From the NCBI RefSeq assembly GCF_030012985.1, contig NZ_CP120233.1, forward strand, positions 4,273,001-4,337,000: a stretch of DNA of 64,000 nt, given 5' to 3'. The stretch comes from Microbulbifer sp. VAAF005 (GTDB lineage: Bacteria; Pseudomonadota; Gammaproteobacteria; Pseudomonadales; Cellvibrionaceae). Under the pieces are notes generated by a model. The model was not told where the DNA came from. It did not search any database and saw only the letters and a program-made list of their open reading frames with translations. Each line of letters begins with the position of its first letter. Position 1 is the stretch's first letter. The position numbers and the translations under genes were made by a program. Of the stretch, positions 48,235 to 64,000 are shown piece after piece.

Positions 48235-50352
48235 ATGCAGCTAACTGTTGAAAATAAGCAAGGCATCCAGTACGAAGTTAGGATTGGTTGGGCATACCAG
48301 ATGGGCATACCTATGCAAGTCGATGCTAACCACTTGCTTTCGATGTTCGACGATGCCGTCATTGAGAAAATTCATGGGCACTTTTTTGGCTTGGGTGGTA
48401 ATTGTTGTAACTTGCTGAGCACGAATATTCAAGCTGGCACCTCAGGCACTATTTTTTTAGGGCCCTTATCTGAGCCTCCGGGCCACCTATCTCACTCTGA
48501 AAAAGAAATTTACAGCGCCCTGGTACAGAACCGCCTGATAATTGAGGAATCGCACACGGCAGCGTCGGCCATTGCAGTTAAGCAGTCTGAATTGATGCTT
48601 AAGATCCGTCTGGGATTGCAGCAAATTATCGCTCAGGAGCGTGCAGAATCAGCACGAATCCAGGAACAACATGAAAAGCGTTCCACCATGGGGAAAGTGG
48701 GAGCTTATATTGGGAGTGCTGCTAGCGGTTTTGGTGACGCCGCCTGGGGACTGGCGGTATGGACAAAAGATATCCTTGAAGTAGCGGAAATGCTAAGCCC
48801 CTTGCGCCAATCTCATAGGCTGGGTGTTGCCACAGTAAACTACTTCATACATGGAAAAAGCTTCGAAGAATCTGGCCAGCAATACCTCAGCGATTTAGAA
48901 CGTGAAGCAGTGGATGTGCTCGGTTTTGACCCTTCTAAAATTACTAAACAGCAGCTGGAACTGGCCGTTGATGTTGCCCAGATTATTTATGATGATCTCT
49001 CCCTGCGCGAAATTATTATCCGCTTTGCCGAGGATTATGTAAAAGCCCAACACAGCCTTGAAGTTACTAAGTTAGTTGGTGGCGGAGCCTTTGAAATAGT
49101 CCTTACTATCGTCCTCGCAGCGATAACTGGGGGCGTCGGTGCAGCTGTGGCTGTAGTCAAAAATGCACGCTTATTAAGGGCCTTCAAGAAGCTCGGTGAG
49201 CTGATGATGGAGTTCGCTAAACTGAAGAAGCTGCAGCAGCGGGTACTTAAGAAAAGGGGCGGCAAAGCAAAAGGCAGCAGTGCAAGTTTCTCTGATTTGA
49301 GCTCTTCGGAGGTTACGGTGCCGCAAAAATCCAGCGGCCCGTCTTCGAGCAATTCTAGCTCTGCTACTTCTAGTAGCTCCAGCCAAAGTAGTAGCAGTTC
49401 TGGAGGTAGCCCCAATAGTAATTCCAATGCTGCAGACACTAATACATTGTTACCTCCAGGTGCTCAGTCTGTTCAAGAAAGAATAGCTCAGGGTAAAACT
49501 GTACCTCGGCATGCACGCGTGAATCCTGAAGGCTATTATTATGATTCCAGTGTAGGAAAATATAAAACCATACCTGAACCTAAGCCAGATCTTTCTAAGG
49601 GATCAGGTAATAGGGAGATTCCTTGTTTTGGAGCTGGTACATTAGTAGCAACGCCGGATTCATTTGCAAAAATTGAAGATATTAAAATAGGAACTCTTGT
49701 TAGTTCTTGGGATGAAAATCTTAAAAAAGTAGTGGAAAATAGAGTTACGGCCTTGCATCGAAATAAGGCAGTTGATTGGGTTGAGATTGTGGTATCTGGA
49801 AGCGTTATTACTGCCACGTGTAACCACCGTTTCTGGATGCCCAAAAATGAAGAGTGGATTGAAGCGAGATTTTTGGATGTTGGAATGGAGGTATTGCTAG
49901 AGAATGGCCAGCGTTCTAACATTGACAAAATAAGTTTAGTGACCTCGGGTGAAAAAGATACTTTCAATATAACTGTAGAAAATGCTCATACCTACTACGT
50001 GGGTAGTTCGAAAGTTCTTGTCCACAATGATGGAAGCGATGTAAATGGCAAAGTTTACATTGGCTATAATAAGAGTGATTCTCCTATTTATGTTGGACAA
50101 ACATTGCAAACAATAAAAGCACGACAAGCTCAACACACAGCAGAAGGTATTGCTGATCCTGTCAATAAAGGCTGGAAAACTGAAATGACTATTAAGCAAT
50201 ACCCTGGACTAGATGGATTGACGCCGGATCAAATGAATTATCATGAAAGAAGAATTTACGATCAGCTTATTGAGAAAGGGATTGACCTAAAAAATAGTCA
50301 AATACCACTTACAGATCCAAAAGTAAATAAGTTGATTAAAAAGTACTGCTAG
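48235..50352 (+). CDS. Polymorphic toxin with pretoxin Hint domain and GIY-YIG-like nuclease tip
   Basis: 705 residues. The N-terminal 280 residues are unrecognised, with amphipathic helices. A glycine-rich hydrophobic segment follows (GGGAFEIVLTIVLAAITGGV, about 283-302), then a Lys-rich and a Ser-rich linker (about 355-400). A Hint domain starts at Cys464 (PCFGAGTLVATPD) and ends VLVHN at Asn598, the signature of self-cleaving pretoxin Hint modules. The last 100 residues look like a GIY-YIG nuclease: VYIGY..., IYVGQT, Arg630, His634 and a downstream glutamate in NYHERRIYDQL. No PAAR, VgrG, Rhs or signal sequence was found, so the export route is unknown. Two small genes follow directly, as expected for immunity. 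Confidence 0.8.
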   Translation: MQLTVENKQGIQYEVRIGWAYQMGIPMQVDANHLLSMFDDAVIEKIHGHFFGLGGNCCNLLSTNIQAGTSGTIFLGPLSEPPGHLSHSEKEIYSALVQNRLIIEESHTAASAIAVKQSELMLKIRLGLQQIIAQERAESARIQEQHEKRSTMGKVGAYIGSAASGFGDAAWGLAVWTKDILEVAEMLSPLRQSHRLGVATVNYFIHGKSFEESGQQYLSDLEREAVDVLGFDPSKITKQQLELAVDVAQIIYDDLSLREIIIRFAEDYVKAQHSLEVTKLVGGGAFEIVLTIVLAAITGGVGAAVAVVKNARLLRAFKKLGELMMEFAKLKKLQQRVLKKRGGKAKGSSASFSDLSSSEVTVPQKSSGPSSSNSSSATSSSSSQSSSSSGGSPNSNSNAADTNTLLPPGAQSVQERIAQGKTVPRHARVNPEGYYYDSSVGKYKTIPEPKPDLSKGSGNREIPCFGAGTLVATPDSFAKIEDIKIGTLVSSWDENLKKVVENRVTALHRNKAVDWVEIVVSGSVITATCNHRFWMPKNEEWIEARFLDVGMEVLLENGQRSNIDKISLVTSGEKDTFNITVENAHTYYVGSSKVLVHNDGSDVNGKVYIGYNKSDSPIYVGQTLQTIKARQAQHTAEGIADPVNKGWKTEMTIKQYPGLDGLTPDQMNYHERRIYDQLIEKGIDLKNSQIPLTDPKVNKLIKKYC

Positions 50353-50361
50353 GAGGATGTT

Positions 50362-50613
50362 ATGGCGTGGGATGATAGTTATTTTTGTGGGTATCAGATT
50401 ATATCAGGGGATAAGCCTGTTGACGAGCTGAGTATGGCTTTGAGAAAAATTACGGTTGAATATACCGAAAGGTTTAGTCGAAAGCCATCAGTTGCAGAAT
50501 TACTATATGCCTTTAAAATTGTTATCCAATCGTTGGGGGAGGATCTATTATCTGACCCTGAGAATTTAAATAGCATGGTTATAGAACTAATAGGTAGAAA
50601 TGATGATAGCTGA
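50362..50613 (+). CDS. Candidate immunity protein for the Hint/GIY-YIG toxin
   Basis: 83 residues, starting nine bases after the toxin stop, with AGGAGG immediately upstream. It is small, soluble, mixed-charge and mostly helical (VDELSMALRKITVEYTERFS, PSVAELLYAFKIVIQSLG). No known family is recognised. Position directly behind the toxin tip is the reason for the immunity call; direct evidence is absent. Confidence 0.6.
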   Translation: MAWDDSYFCGYQIISGDKPVDELSMALRKITVEYTERFSRKPSVAELLYAFKIVIQSLGEDLLSDPENLNSMVIELIGRNDDS

Positions 50614-51057: not shown

Positions 51058-52049
51058 TCAGAAGAGGTAGTATCGAGAGATTATATTGAAATTAGCAGGG
51101 TATAGTGGAAGGTAATTGCCGACAGTTACTGATGCGTATACCGCGCATTTATTGAGCAGGGTGCAGGCTTCCTGTACTGCCTCGACTGATCCTATTAGGC
51201 CTTTAAAGCGACTTTCAAAGTTTCGATCGAGGTAGAGCCAGTGTTTTGGTGAGATACCAAGCTGCTTGAGGGGGAGTGTTCTCGGCAATACAGCCCCGTT
51301 TTCTTGGATCAAAATTTCAGCCACTCCAGTCCACCAGCTCCAGATAATGCCAACTGGAAGGGCAGCCCTTTTGGCCTGTCAGGCGCTCGCTCCCTATGAA
51401 CGGCAGAAGCACTTTAGGTTGCCGACCTGAGATTGCTGTGCGAATACGCTGTTGAACCGAAGTGTGGTCAGGCGCTTCTGGAGTTTTCGCCATATTGGCA
51501 CGGATAGGGTTGAGATCGACATAGGCCATACAGGAAGCAAGGGCATCCAGTAAAGCCTGGGACTTAAATCGACCTTCCCAGAAGCAGCCTGTACAGCTAT
51601 CTTCGGCATTAGCTTGGCTGGTCATAGGTTCGTTTAAACAGCGCCTAAACCAGCTAAGATCTACCAAATGATTTCGCATAGAGTAACGACACCCTTTAGC
51701 TTTATTATCTCGTAGTGATCGAGCGTCGTGCCTGGTAGATAGCGCTGAGCTAAATTAGAAGCCTTAAAGAACTTTTGCCAGCGTAAAATAACCTCATTAT
51801 CTGACCGTTTAATGCTATTTCTTTGTTGATATAAATTACAATATGGTAGTGATTGCTCATTACCGCATTTGCAGCGATATCAAGATAAAAGATTAAAGCG
51901 AGGTTGTGCATCCGAGATTCAATCCACTCGCGACGGCGCTCATAGTCGTTGCTAGGTTTTATATCCTTGCCACACAGAAATACTCTTCGCGCTCAGTGGG
52001 AGATGCAGTGATAATAGGCGTTGCCTATAGCGATATTTGAGCGCTGCAT
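51058..52049 (-). pseudogene. Decayed HUH (Y1/RAYT-like) transposase, copy 1
   Basis: Reading the minus strand from an ATG at 52049 gives pieces in several frames: GNAYYHCISH, then VFLCGKDIKPSNDYERRREW and AVMSNHYHIVIYIN (the HUH motif), then SWFRRCLNEPMTSQANAEDS, CFWEGRFKSQALLDALA and CMAYVDLNPIRANMA (tyrosine region), then a further frame with PLKQLGISPKHWLYLDRNFE. These are the parts of a Y1 transposase of the REP-associated tyrosine transposase type. At least three frameshifts and an internal stop make it inactive. Two of the pieces are long enough (120 and 88 codons) to mislead annotation as genes. Confidence 0.75.
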
Positions 52050-55183: not shown

Positions 55184-55228
55184 TTGACAGTCGCTAAGCT
55201 AGCTATCGTATACTGTATGTACATACAG
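55184..55228 (+). promoter_or_regulatory. LexA (SOS) box overlapping a promoter
   Basis: CTGTATGTACATACAG at 55213-55228 is a perfect palindrome with the CTGT-N8-ACAG form of gammaproteobacterial LexA sites. A TTGACA at 55184-55189 and TATACT at 55209-55214 (19-base spacer) form a candidate sigma-70 promoter that the box overlaps. It lies 20 bases before the start codon of the next gene. Confidence 0.8.
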
Positions 55229-55248
55229 TCTTGTGCCTGGAGGTGGAT

Positions 55249-55476
55249 ATGCGGGGTAGAAATATTACTATTGATGGAGAGCCGGTTCGGATTTGCCGCT
55301 ATCGTTCGGGTTTTAATGACCAGCCAATGTACGCCATCTGCATTCTTAACTATACAAAGTACGTGCGTAGCTTTTCAGTGTTTGTGGATGTAAATCTGCG
55401 TAGCGAGTTGGAACTCACTCTGGCACAGATGCGAGAGGTTGAGCGCAGTATGAACTGGATGGAAGTCACAGCGTGA
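55249..55476 (+). CDS. Hypothetical protein, first gene of an SOS-type operon
   Basis: 75 residues from the ATG at 55249, with GGAGGTGG nine bases upstream. It begins MRGRNITIDGEPVRICRYR and contains MYAICILNYTKYVRSFSVFV, which looks like alternating beta strands, then a helical, acidic end (ELTLAQMREVERSMNWMEV). No membrane segment and no known family. It directly follows the LexA box, so DNA-damage induction is likely. A toxin, inhibitor or repair accessory role is possible but not shown. Confidence 0.7.
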   Translation: MRGRNITIDGEPVRICRYRSGFNDQPMYAICILNYTKYVRSFSVFVDVNLRSELELTLAQMREVERSMNWMEVTA

Positions 55477-55519
55477 GAATATAAGGCTCAGGCTGTTTAT
55501 ACTAGAAAGGAGAACTATT

Positions 55520-55768
55520 ATGGGCAGAAAAGTTAATCGATTTGCAATTTTTGCTGAGCGTGTTCATTTAATGAATGGCGGTGCAAAGAGCTTTAGAGAT
55601 ACTGCACCCACAGAAAAGGCTGCAAGAGATCTGGCAGAAGAAATTGCTAAGTCCGAAAAAGCGGAGTTTTATTCTTGGTTGCAAATTCTCGATATCATGA
55701 CTGGGAGTTATACTGAATACTCAATCAAAAGGGGTGGGGTTTTAGAGAAGAGGGAGTGTCCTAAATAG
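55520..55768 (+). CDS. Hypothetical protein, second gene of the SOS-type operon
   Basis: 82 residues, 43 bases after the previous stop, with a strong ribosome binding site (AAAGGAGAA). Sequence: MGRKVNRFAIFAERVHLMNG, a helical middle rich in Ala, Glu and Lys (EKAARDLAEEIAKSEKAEFY), and a basic end. Soluble, family unknown. Spacing suggests co-transcription with the first gene under the LexA box. The pair could be a toxin-antitoxin-like or damage-response unit; nothing in the residues proves it. Confidence 0.65.
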   Translation: MGRKVNRFAIFAERVHLMNGGAKSFRDTAPTEKAARDLAEEIAKSEKAEFYSWLQILDIMTGSYTEYSIKRGGVLEKRECPK

Positions 55769-56497
55769 TAGAAAATTATTAATAATTGGTTTGGTGCGTA
55801 ACTATGATCAAGAAGGTAGACATTATATAAATTTTTTAAAGAGCTAGTTGTTCTCCAAAAAGTCACAAATGAATGTTCTGTAATTGTTGATTGGATTTAA
55901 TCTGCCACAGCTTAAGAAGAATATAAAATATTCTGATGTAGTAATTTTTACTTGTTTTGGTTTTAAGTCTGAGGCTGGGGTATATAAATCCTGGTCTTTA
56001 TATTTTCTTTCTTTATTATAATTTAGATGGGGAAACATTATAACGTAAGTCTGAAGTGGGTTTGCTTGACTAGTAGTAGGATGGCGATGCCGTTGGTAGA
56101 AAACAAGCCCTGCCGACCTAATTGTCTATTTCAAGATTGCGGGCTAATCGAACTACTTTTACTTATCTTAACAAATCTCTTAAGGGGATTTTGAAGTTTT
56201 AGTGAGATGGTGCTAGGTTTGAGAAAGCTACTAGCTTTGTGTGTTCATAGATCAGGTTGGATATTTTACAGTGGTATAGCTTCACTTGCAGAAAGCCCAC
56301 TTTGGGTACTGCTTTAGTATACAAGCCGGCACCTGCCGGCTTGTATATAATTACATTATTGTTTTTCTTTATATCTATGTTTGTGGTCAAATTTAAGGTT
56401 TGCTAAATCCAGCTTGGGTGCTGGCTATAGTTGGTCAAAATTAAATTAACTGACTAAACAATAACTATTTGGTGACGGCCTTAAGCCTGGCAACAAA
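55769..56497. other. Gene-poor stretch containing a perfect palindrome
   Basis: About 730 AT-rich bases with no credible gene. The only structure I see is the palindrome at 56318-56347. Confidence 0.45.
56318..56347. repeat. Perfect 14-bp inverted repeat with two-base spacer
   Basis: TATACAAGCCGGCA-CC-TGCCGGCTTGTATA. It lies 150 bases past the end of the minus-strand gene at 56498 and between HUH-transposase relics. It could be a REP-like element, a terminator without a T-run on that strand, or a recombination or protein-binding site. Confidence 0.6.
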
Positions 56498-58279: not shown

Positions 58280-58881
58280 AGTCCACTTTCTTTTGGTGTT
58301 TTAGCTATAGTGGCACGAATAGAGTTTAGATAGAAATAGGCTATACGGGGAGCAAGGGCTTGTCATTGAGTAAGGCCTGGAGCTGAAATCAGCTATTCCT
58401 AGTAGCGGCATGTACAATTTTCTTCGGCATTGGTTCGGAGGGCAATAGGCTCATTTAAGTAGCGAAAATACCAGCTAAAATCCAATAAGCGATTTCTCTA
58501 TAAATTGATGACTTCTTTGAAATATCTTATCTCGCCATGATTGAGAGTATCTTCTTAGACAGGATGTAGGGTCAGGCTATAGGCTTTGAATATATTTTGC
58601 CTGTAGAGGATGGCCTCCATATCGGACCAGTTCAGAGGCTTCTCTTTGTTGATATAAAGTACGGTATGGTAGTGGTAATTTATTATAATATAGGCAGCAA
58701 TATCAATAGTTAAGGTTGAAGCCAGATTAAGGACCATAGGTTCAATCTGCTCACAGCGATCTTCATGAGTTTTGCCAGATTTTATATCTCTACCGTACAG
58801 AGCCGCTTTTCGTAAACAGTTGGAGACACGGTGGTAGTAGGGGGCCTCTAGTGCGGCTTGAGCACTGCGCGTAAGAGGCAT
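58280..58881 (-). pseudogene. Decayed HUH transposase, copy 4
   Basis: From the ATG at 58881 a 108-codon frame encodes MPLTRSAQAALEAPYYHRVS, CLRKAALYGRDIKSGKTHED, IDIAAYIIINYHYHTVLYIN: the N-terminal part of the same transposase with the HUH-type HYH. It stops near 58555. The remaining DNA down to 58280 matches the parts encoding NLVDFSWYFRYLN-like and AYFYLNSIRATI-like sequence, in other frames. It is therefore a truncated, inactive copy, though its N-terminal part is the best preserved of the set. Confidence 0.65.
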
Positions 58882-62087: not shown

Positions 62088-62825
62088 TTAACTTCCCTGC
62101 TCGAATATCATTTTCAGTCTATCGGCTCCGGATCGGCTAGATATTAAAGTGGTTTTCTGTTCATCATCAATAATAACTGCCAGTTTTCCGTTCAAATAAC
62201 GCTGAATTTCCGAGACTCTGTCCAGGTTAATTAGATAGCTCCGGTGTAGGCGCAGAAATTGATCTGGATTAAGCTTTTGCTCTAGTTGATCTAAGCCCAT
62301 TTGTAAGGGCTTGATGCCTTTCTCCGTATGAGCAATAATTGAACCTTGCTCCGACTTAATAAAATAAATATCGTTCAGATCAATAAAGGCCATACGATCA
62401 TCGCACTTACTTACGAGGCGCTTTAGTGCTATCGAATCACCCCCTACCCGAGTACTGTTATGAATAAGTTTGATTCGCTTCTCCGCTTTTTCGATGGCAG
62501 CTTTTAAGCGTTGCAATGGGAAGGGTTTAAGCAAGTAATCGATTGTATCGTGGTTAAAAGCATCAATAGCAAACTTAGAATACGCTGTTGTGAAAATAAT
62601 ATAGGGTTGGTAAGTTAGGGCATCTAGTACATCCAATCCACTAAGATGAGGCATTTCAATGTCCATCAGTAATAATTGTGGCTGATGCTCCTCGATCAAT
62701 GTTAATGCTTCCAGTCCAGATTTTGCTTCGGCAACCAATTCAATAGACTTAATAGTTGCCAGTTGAGCTTTTAATTTATTCCTTGCCGGTGCTTCATCTT
62801 CGGCAATAATGACCCTTAAATTCAT
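62088..62825 (-). CDS. LytTR-type response regulator
   Basis: 245 residues. An N-terminal receiver domain has the acidic pair in IIAEDEAPARN, the phospho-acceptor Asp55 in LLLMDIEMPHLSG and the conserved lysine in DYLLKPFPLQRLK. The C-terminal LytTR DNA-binding domain (about 140-243) has IYFIKSEQGSIIAHTEKG and FLRLHRSYLINLDRVSEIQR. Its start overlaps the kinase stop (ATGA), so the two form a two-component pair. Similar pairs control surface or extracellular functions, but the target here is unknown. Confidence 0.92.
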   Translation of the reverse strand: MNLRVIIAEDEAPARNKLKAQLATIKSIELVAEAKSGLEALTLIEEHQPQLLLMDIEMPHLSGLDVLDALTYQPYIIFTTAYSKFAIDAFNHDTIDYLLKPFPLQRLKAAIEKAEKRIKLIHNSTRVGGDSIALKRLVSKCDDRMAFIDLNDIYFIKSEQGSIIAHTEKGIKPLQMGLDQLEQKLNPDQFLRLHRSYLINLDRVSEIQRYLNGKLAVIIDDEQKTTLISSRSGADRLKMIFEQGS

Positions 62826-63826
62826 ACAGACATCTCAACTTTAACGTGGGCACCGTTTTGATTGCTTAGAGTAAGTTTTCCATTTGGTCGTAGCTCAATG
62901 CGCTGGCGCAAATTATGAATTCCAGTTCCCTGTGAGTGGATAAAACTAAGAACGCTTTCCTGAAATCCATATCCGTTATCTGCGACTTCAATAATTACCT
63001 TGTCATTCTTTAAGTAGATACGACATTGAATCTGTAAGCTTTCTATTGTACGGCAATGTTTGAAGCAATTCTCAAAAATTGGCTGTAATAATAGGGGAGG
63101 GATAGAGACATCACTGGCTCTTGGGTCTACCGTAATCTCTACCTTCAAATTATCACCAAAACGTACTTTTTCTATCTCTAAATACTTATTAATTAGTTCA
63201 ATTTCTTCTTTGATTGTAGTTTCTTCTAGCTCGCCAGTGTCGAGAGAATACCTCAAAATATCTGCCAGTTTATGTAAAACCTCATCAGCAAGGTGTGGAT
63301 CGCTATGAATATAGGAGGAGATTGTATTAAGACTGTTAAACATAAAGTGTGGATTTAGCTGATAACGTAATGTTTGTAATTTTGCTTTCTGCATGGCGAG
63401 CTTTTGCTCAGAGGCTTTATGGCGGTATTCCAGCATGGCGTAAGAACAGTATAAACAGGTAGCCCACATTAGCCCATTAAAAATAATACCCAGTCCCATA
63501 TTCAATCCGCCTTCGACATTAAAGGCGTACTCTATAAACCAGCTAACGCACTGGTTGCCAATAGTCATATGGACTACCAGGATCATCCACTCTATTAACA
63601 ATGAATGAAACCCTCTGCGTCTAAGGCGCAATACAATGAGAGCTGTGGACCAAGTGGGTAGCCAATAAAAGAAAACAAACCATATTGGAGCACCAGTGAG
63701 GGCACTGCTAACCGAACTTATATCTCCTGATTCAAAAAAGACAAATACGCAAGCTATATCTAGTAACAAAACGACGACAAATGATTTCGCAAAGAAAGGA
63801 TGCTTAAGATCTTTTAGTATTGACAT
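62822..63826 (-). CDS. LytS/YehU-type sensor histidine kinase
   Basis: About 334 residues from the ATG at 63826 (a TTG at 63844 is an alternative). Four to five membrane segments cover the N-terminal 130 residues. The His_kinase domain follows, with the phospho-acceptor in LRYQLNPHFMFNSLNTISSY, and an HATPase domain with LLQPIFENCFKHC (N box) and IIEVADNGYGFQE plus GTGIHNLRQRIEL (G boxes). No separate sensor domain is seen, so the membrane part is the likely sensor. Paired with the LytTR regulator downstream. Confidence 0.9.
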   Translation of the reverse strand: MSILKDLKHPFFAKSFVVVLLLDIACVFVFFESGDISSVSSALTGAPIWFVFFYWLPTWSTALIVLRLRRRGFHSLLIEWMILVVHMTIGNQCVSWFIEYAFNVEGGLNMGLGIIFNGLMWATCLYCSYAMLEYRHKASEQKLAMQKAKLQTLRYQLNPHFMFNSLNTISSYIHSDPHLADEVLHKLADILRYSLDTGELEETTIKEEIELINKYLEIEKVRFGDNLKVEITVDPRASDVSIPPLLLQPIFENCFKHCRTIESLQIQCRIYLKNDKVIIEVADNGYGFQESVLSFIHSQGTGIHNLRQRIELRPNGKLTLSNQNGAHVKVEMSV

Positions 63827-64000
63827 AAAATATGTGATGAGCAATAGCTATCATAGCTTATTTTTGGTTGGCAAATTATATTGGGAATAAATAAGATAAG
63901 ATAGTTTTAATTCAACCCAGCTTGATGTGTTTTCTTGTTATCTAAAGGTGAGTATCAGCACCCATAAATTACAACTTAAATGGGTGCGGATACTATGAGG
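63827..64000. other. Window end, probable promoter region of the two-component pair
   Basis: AT-rich, no coding frame. It should hold the minus-strand promoter of the kinase gene; no specific site was identified. Confidence 0.35.

Follow-up and report, generated by a model that had tools for sequence, protein, structure and literature searches.

What might two small genes of no described family do under control of the SOS response? This question is raised by a pair of open reading frames (ORFs), here called gene1 and gene2, which lie behind a LexA (SOS) box in a 64-kb stretch of Microbulbifer sp. VAAF005 (positions 4273001-4337000 of a 5.40-Mb single-contig genome), referred to below as the window. 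Our leading answer, held tentatively, is that the pair forms a LexA-repressed, prophage-linked DNA-damage accessory operon, that is, prophage-linked cargo that the host would have kept and put to use.

Direct reading of the forward strand, in window coordinates, places a -35 hexamer, TTGACA, at 55184..55189 and a -10 hexamer, TATACT, at 55209..55214, so as to give the promoter TTGACA-N19-TATACT. The -10 hexamer overlaps the LexA box CTGTATGTACATACAG (55213..55228, no strand assigned), a perfect palindrome that was located by a pattern scan and compared with the boxes at lexA and at the other gene1 loci. Gene1 (55249..55476, forward strand, 75 amino acids, ATG start) begins 20 nucleotides (nt) after the box, behind the ribosome binding site GGAGGTGG at 55239..55246, and gene2 (55520..55768, forward strand, 82 amino acids) follows after a gap of 43 nt, behind AAAGGAG at 55507..55513. 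The first-pass annotation had described a perfect box overlapping a candidate promoter 20 bases before a start codon, and its positions, lengths and spacing were confirmed by this reading. The usual promoter spacer is 17 nt, and a scan for promoters with spacers of 16-18 nt did not return this one because its spacer is 19 nt. Such a spacing, longer than usual, would be in keeping with low promoter strength even after derepression.

Taken alone, the window box exceeds chance only moderately. The palindrome is the sole match at up to three mismatches in the 64 kb, with a mean of 0.17 in shuffled sequences and at least one match in 15 of 100 shuffles; the looser pattern CTGT-N8-ACAG matches twice in the window, and 14 of 100 shuffles contain as many. 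What raises the box above chance is the genome-wide excess of CTGTATN5TACAG (18 forward sites, one of them at lexA, vs one for the reversed control), together with the presence of boxes at 16 of 18 gene1 matches. CTGT-N8-ACAG itself occurs 87 times in the whole genome, vs 23 for the reversed control.

The same type of box is found at the genome's own lexA, where CTGTATTTATATACAG lies 16 nt before the start of an ORF with LexA_DNA_bind and Peptidase_S24 domains. Two successive boxes precede a further, ImuA-like ORF, for which Pfam returned SulA just above and RecA below the cut-off. CTGT-N8-ACAG is given as the LexA consensus of beta- and gammaproteobacteria in the part of PMC13393415 that was accessible. 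The pair thus resembles the LexA regulon genes of these bacteria in carrying a consensus box that overlaps the -10 hexamer and is of the type seen at lexA and before the imuA-like gene, whereas it differs from them in that its proteins match no described family and in that the gene1 promoter has a 19-nt spacer at 15 of 16 loci.

The homologue and neighbourhood search that the first-pass annotation had proposed was carried out on 48 genomes of the genus and returned 18 gene1 matches in 12 genomes. A perfect CTGT-N8-ACAG box lies just upstream at 16 of these 18, both unboxed matches being fragments, and the box ends 13-24 nt before gene1 wherever the start codon is kept. Among the 16 boxed loci, TTGACA stands at the same distance from the box, with N19 to the -10, at 15, TATA precedes the box at 15, and both hexamers are present at 14; most letters of the spacer vary despite its fixed length (13 of the 16 rows compared). 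In addition, the full pattern TTGACA-N19-TATACTGTATN5TACAG occurs at 13 sites in the 48 genomes and at none in the control, and each of the 13 maps to a gene1 gene. These comparisons strongly support repression of the gene1 promoter by LexA, and in this respect the LexA control proposed at first reading gains probability from the relatives and from the like box at lexA.

The median ratio of nonsynonymous to synonymous substitution rates (dN/dS) was 0.17 for gene1 (12 sequences; 42 of 66 pairs usable) and 0.07 for gene2 (11 sequences; 40 of 55 pairs usable); both ORFs behave as real genes under purifying selection. These values bear on the explanation that the pair is a functionless remnant of mobile-element decay that keeps an old SOS promoter. 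Transposase fragments do flank the pair, and gene1 is broken in several relatives (a frameshift in G044, one G040 copy without a start, and fragments in G030 and G043); against this, dN/dS is far below 1 for both genes, and 15 of 16 loci share one promoter spacing even though the spacer sequence itself is mostly variable. A remnant is accordingly very unlikely in our estimate.

All protein matches with an organism name come from Microbulbifer. A gene1 profile searched against 5.8 billion proteins returned 13 clusters (135 candidates), of which 10 are named, all 10 from Microbulbifer; an alignment-based scan of genome contigs gave four gene1 loci, all from Microbulbifer, and a first contig scan gave none. 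In an order-wide set, five of 390 genomes were matched, with up to 14 candidates scored per genome. The sole match outside the genus (G092, E 8.5e-5, with an internal stop) was rejected, its region being judged unrelated by eye. Translated searches (tblastn) with gene1 found no match in phages or plasmids, and viral contigs likewise held none. Two very diverged copies, in G008 (L083, 31% identity) and G014 (L082, 35% identity), keep the box with neither partner adjoining, which suggests that gene1 itself is the SOS-relevant part.

The neighbours of gene1 point to a connection with DNA damage. Gene1 stands directly before gene2 at eight of the 18 matches (the window, G029, G009, G030, G043, G031, G045 and G044) and before a SRAP gene at seven, directly upstream at five places (G000, G029, G038 and two in G040) and as fragments about 100-120 nt upstream in G030 and G043; one further match follows gene2 (G030), and two have neither neighbour (G014 and G008). 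By coordinates, the SRAP start overlaps the end of gene1 by 8 nt in L080 and L084, and a 14-nt gap separates them in L068. The SRAP assignment rests on Pfam PF02586 (E 1.9e-13 and 6.4e-14 for the two proteins tested), and the neighbourhoods of the residues that count according to the accessible part of PMC3765255 (Cys2, Asn, Glu and His) are kept in six of six cluster members. That same portion of the source ties SRAP to SOS polymerase operons and notes that prophages also carry it; the chemistry of SRAP at abasic sites is, as far as the available text of PMC9436759 goes, the subject of that paper.

SRAP is present in 35 of the 48 genomes. In other families of the order, seven loci with distant SRAP genes were inspected: three carry a perfect box 25-26 nt upstream and two more a single-mismatch box, although two of the seven matches begin inside SRAP, so that their true upstream stretch is not properly covered. 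The likeness of the window operon to the SRAP (YedK/HMCES) SOS operons is that gene1 homologues precede SRAP under a LexA box at five places; the difference is that in the window gene2 occupies the place of SRAP. Polymerases, Ku, ligase, a RecD-like helicase and Zn-chelating proteins are the SRAP partners named in the accessible part of PMC3765255, and no gene1-like protein appears there. As a separate observation, five SRAP matches were found in G040 (L080 and L081), of which two are partial and two adjoin boxed gene1 copies; L080 also contains an HP1-like tail cluster, with an AbiJ_NTD4 gene between the tail genes and gene1-SRAP.

Gene2, in turn, belongs to a prophage-borne family. It matches phrog_1411, a phage family of unknown function, at E 1.2e-6 over profile positions 64-127 of 129 only, and several of its relatives in the same genome lie in phage-type neighbourhoods; gene2 differs from phrog_1411 in covering no more than the second half of the profile and in having a promoter with a LexA box. 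Five gene2 matches were found in the own genome, and 11 of the 48 genus genomes hold two to eight each. An HP1-like tail operon ending in a spike-like ORF, or in a remnant of that ORF, immediately precedes two of the four other own-genome copies, copies in G030, G045 and G044, and a copy on a viral contig, which is the one gene2 match among such contigs. The spike-like ORF scored 20.6 bits with Phage_base_V, below the cut-off of 23.8, and a neighbour matched HP1_ORF34 at E 8.3e-45. A distant gene2 relative sits between Mu Gam-like and HNH/SSB genes, and more phrog_1411-like genes occur in the 5.18-5.21 Mb region of the own genome, one of which adjoins an ORF that looks integrase-like by eye. 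No phage match was obtained with gene2 by tblastn. The gap between gene1 and gene2 is, by coordinates, 43-44 nt in six of the eight pairs and 67-68 nt in the other two. The short gap and the kept order support co-transcription of the pair, and the two-gene unit put forward at first reading is probably correct.

The phage surroundings raise the explanation that is next most likely, though in itself unlikely, namely an SOS-induced switch in which gene1, alone or with gene2, encodes a small antirepressor or regulator that couples host LexA to the induction of prophages in the same cell, comparable to the small phage proteins that disable repressors. Of the 15 gene1-bearing regions, seven contain a spike-gene match, in some cases only a short fragment or remnant, and antirepressors and small prophage regulators form the subject of PMC3121763 and PMC10432266 in the parts that were accessible. 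The pair shares with such proteins its small size, its link to LexA and its association with prophages. However, the window pair has no tail gene besides gene2 within 15.5 kb, the gene1-SRAP loci of G000 and G029 share neighbours and have no tail gene in 13-14 kb, and, as a further difference from the antirepressors, no repressor partner or phage switch is known for the pair, none having been searched for. Since spike matches are found in seven of 15 regions and the window pair has gene2 alone, we term the pair prophage-linked and not proven prophage-derived.

Family searches gave little to place the two proteins. Neither matched Pfam at E<=1, and hence neither matched SRAP (PF02586) or SulA (PF03846), nor did either exceed any NCBIfam cut-off, so that, taken with Pfam, no known toxin or antitoxin domain was found. 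The description of the 75- and 82-residue proteins as lacking a recognised family thus held. For gene2, NCBIfam gave a chance-level match to CIS5_fam (E 0.16, 11.6 bits vs a cut-off of 260), and sequence searches of the PDB with gene1 and gene2 profiles returned nothing at E<=10. PHROGs matches of gene1 (E 0.075 with the window protein and no better than 0.011 for any of 20 members) were set aside as not usable. The predicted structure of gene1 consists of four strands and a long helix, with a mean predicted local distance difference test (pLDDT) score of 90.3, and gave weak structural matches only. Gene1 might be a free-standing AcrIF24-like N-terminal fold, serving as anti-CRISPR or host-takeover cargo; PF09611 (type I-F) was found in none of the 48 genus genomes, with the E. 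coli control detected, and we regard this explanation as the least probable of all.

An SOS-induced growth or division inhibitor or toxin, with gene1 as the toxin and gene2 as its antidote or the reverse, would fit two small ORFs in a row under LexA and the genes upstream that resemble polymorphic toxins by eye. The absence of Pfam matches at E<=1 means, however, that there is no toxin, antitoxin or SulA match. In addition, nine of the 18 gene1 matches have no adjoining gene2, and gene2 also occurs without gene1; this separate occurrence is an ill fit to an obligate pair. Toxins of the TisB type are hydrophobic, unlike the two proteins, whose grand average of hydropathy is -0.25 for gene1 and -0.56 for gene2, so that neither is hydrophobic overall. 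We consider this explanation improbable. The toxin and division-inhibitor roles that the first-pass annotation had ventured are therefore not borne out, and its suggestion of an element-mobilising function found no support; an anti-phage or prophage-regulator role may apply to the pair. Judged from these comparisons, handling of damaged or viral DNA would be a more likely role than that of a toxin.

The flanks bear on how the pair came to its place. Downstream of it lie a kinase, a 485-amino-acid gene and a GFA-like gene (62822-63844, running into L071), in an order that matches G029, where the kinase is a short trace only. Six regions from relatives (L073 and L075-L079) share, a few kb or less from the pair, an NYN-domain gene belonging to one family; beyond it, several regions have aconitase-like and WYL genes, and in three (L073, L077 and L078) a GFA-like gene lies on the other side, the names aconitase and GFA being given by eye. 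None of the relatives' left-hand genes was found in the window. The right flank common to G029 and the missing left genes make the pair look like an old resident whose left flank was rebuilt, and the shared right flank, together with the NYN-domain neighbour kept in relatives, argues against recent island cargo. The link to mobile elements drawn at first reading thus stands in part: gene2 is prophage-borne and gene1 is often near remains of prophage tail genes, but the pair does not look like a recent arrival on an island. The operon is flanked on either side, at 51058-51911 and 58555-58881, by fragments belonging to the Y1-type transposase family (cluster c4). Further upstream (48235-50613), a 705-amino-acid ORF that includes a Hint-like region and ends in a nuclease-like C-terminus precedes a small ORF without a Pfam match; together they look polymorphic-toxin/immunity-like by eye. 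A possible intrinsic terminator (55971..56008, forward strand) lies about 200 nt past gene2; the consensus scan that gave it, its only basis, found one vs 0.7 expected in shuffles, which is not evidence of function.

By comparison with the relatives, LexA on the box overlapping the -10 very probably shuts the promoter, and DNA damage would open it through RecA-driven cleavage of LexA. Gene1 and gene2 would then be made together, and, if the pair is a DNA-damage accessory operon, gene1 would serve as a small SOS protein, accessory in the processing of damaged or phage DNA. Its co-product would in several relatives be SRAP, a protein acting at abasic DNA sites, and here gene2, whose family sits at the end of prophage tail operons, with one distant member placed among genes for end protection, HNH and SSB. 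From this company we infer that gene1 may aid a step in DNA-damage or phage-DNA processing. In a bolder version, which we find doubtful, gene1 would represent a new family of SOS effectors, a portable cassette of a LexA promoter and a 75-amino-acid adaptor that pairs now with SRAP, now with a protein of phage origin, and brings this partner to damaged single-stranded DNA; were this so, prophage parts would be built into the host DNA-damage response.

Several observations weigh against an accessory operon of this kind. SRAP does not appear to need gene1: in a survey of 30 genus loci, one per genome, 28 of which were counted (G038 and G019, near contig starts, were misplaced), 26 of the 28 have no perfect box up to 450 nt upstream of SRAP, and a perfect box with gene1 before SRAP was found within the 28 in G000 and G040 only; the G038 locus proved to be boxed in a separate upstream reading. 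Gene1 has neither gene2 nor SRAP beside it at two of the 18 matches, and the order gene2-box-gene1 in G030 makes the partnership of gene1 and gene2 a loose one. Conversely, no box with up to one mismatch lies in the 400-600 nt upstream of the four other own-genome gene2 copies, G021 holds eight gene2 matches and no gene1, and gene2 could have its own promoter inside the 43-nt gap. The 15.5 kb around the window pair, with no tail gene besides gene2, count on the same side, as does the failure of the Pfam, NCBIfam and PDB searches to reveal a known domain in gene1 or gene2.

Small LexA-run genes of unknown role are a known kind. Among the matches listed in a mostly non-subscription literature, no description was found of the gene1 family, its promoter of fixed length or its change of partner, and the literature searched, with subscription papers mostly outside it, contained no paper combining Microbulbifer and LexA. 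If the interpretation is true, the SOS response of these marine bacteria would include an undescribed family of small proteins with a promoter of fixed geometry, whose partner is in some loci a known protein of abasic sites and in others a protein of prophage type. It would also provide a concrete small system in which to ask about accessory proteins of SRAP in bacteria and about the entry of prophage genes into host repair.

Boxes of the same type also occur at mobile elements elsewhere in the genome. The genome has four copies (L027, L031, L135 and L140, at 178714, 364981, 1739333 and 3664846) of a transposase of IS1595 type, the one tested matching PF12762 at E 7.6e-40. In all four, a perfect LexA-type box stands 20-30 nt ahead of the start codon, which suggests that transposition of this element may be SOS-controlled. 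A 333-amino-acid Y1-type transposase, for which the one copy tested matched PF01797 just below the cut-off, is present in five copies (L033, L035, L137, L142 and L144, at 449535, 578261, 1937033, 4344475 and 4788863), each with a perfect box of LexA type 4 nt ahead of the start used and a TTGACA further up at about the distance seen at gene1. A 2026 paper (PMC13393415, accessible part) reported that ISCR transposases are under LexA control. Finally, a 359-amino-acid gene of the phage-integrase family with a SAM-like domain (L147, at 1629187) starts 14 nt after a CTGT-N8-ACAG box and looks integron-integrase-like by eye.
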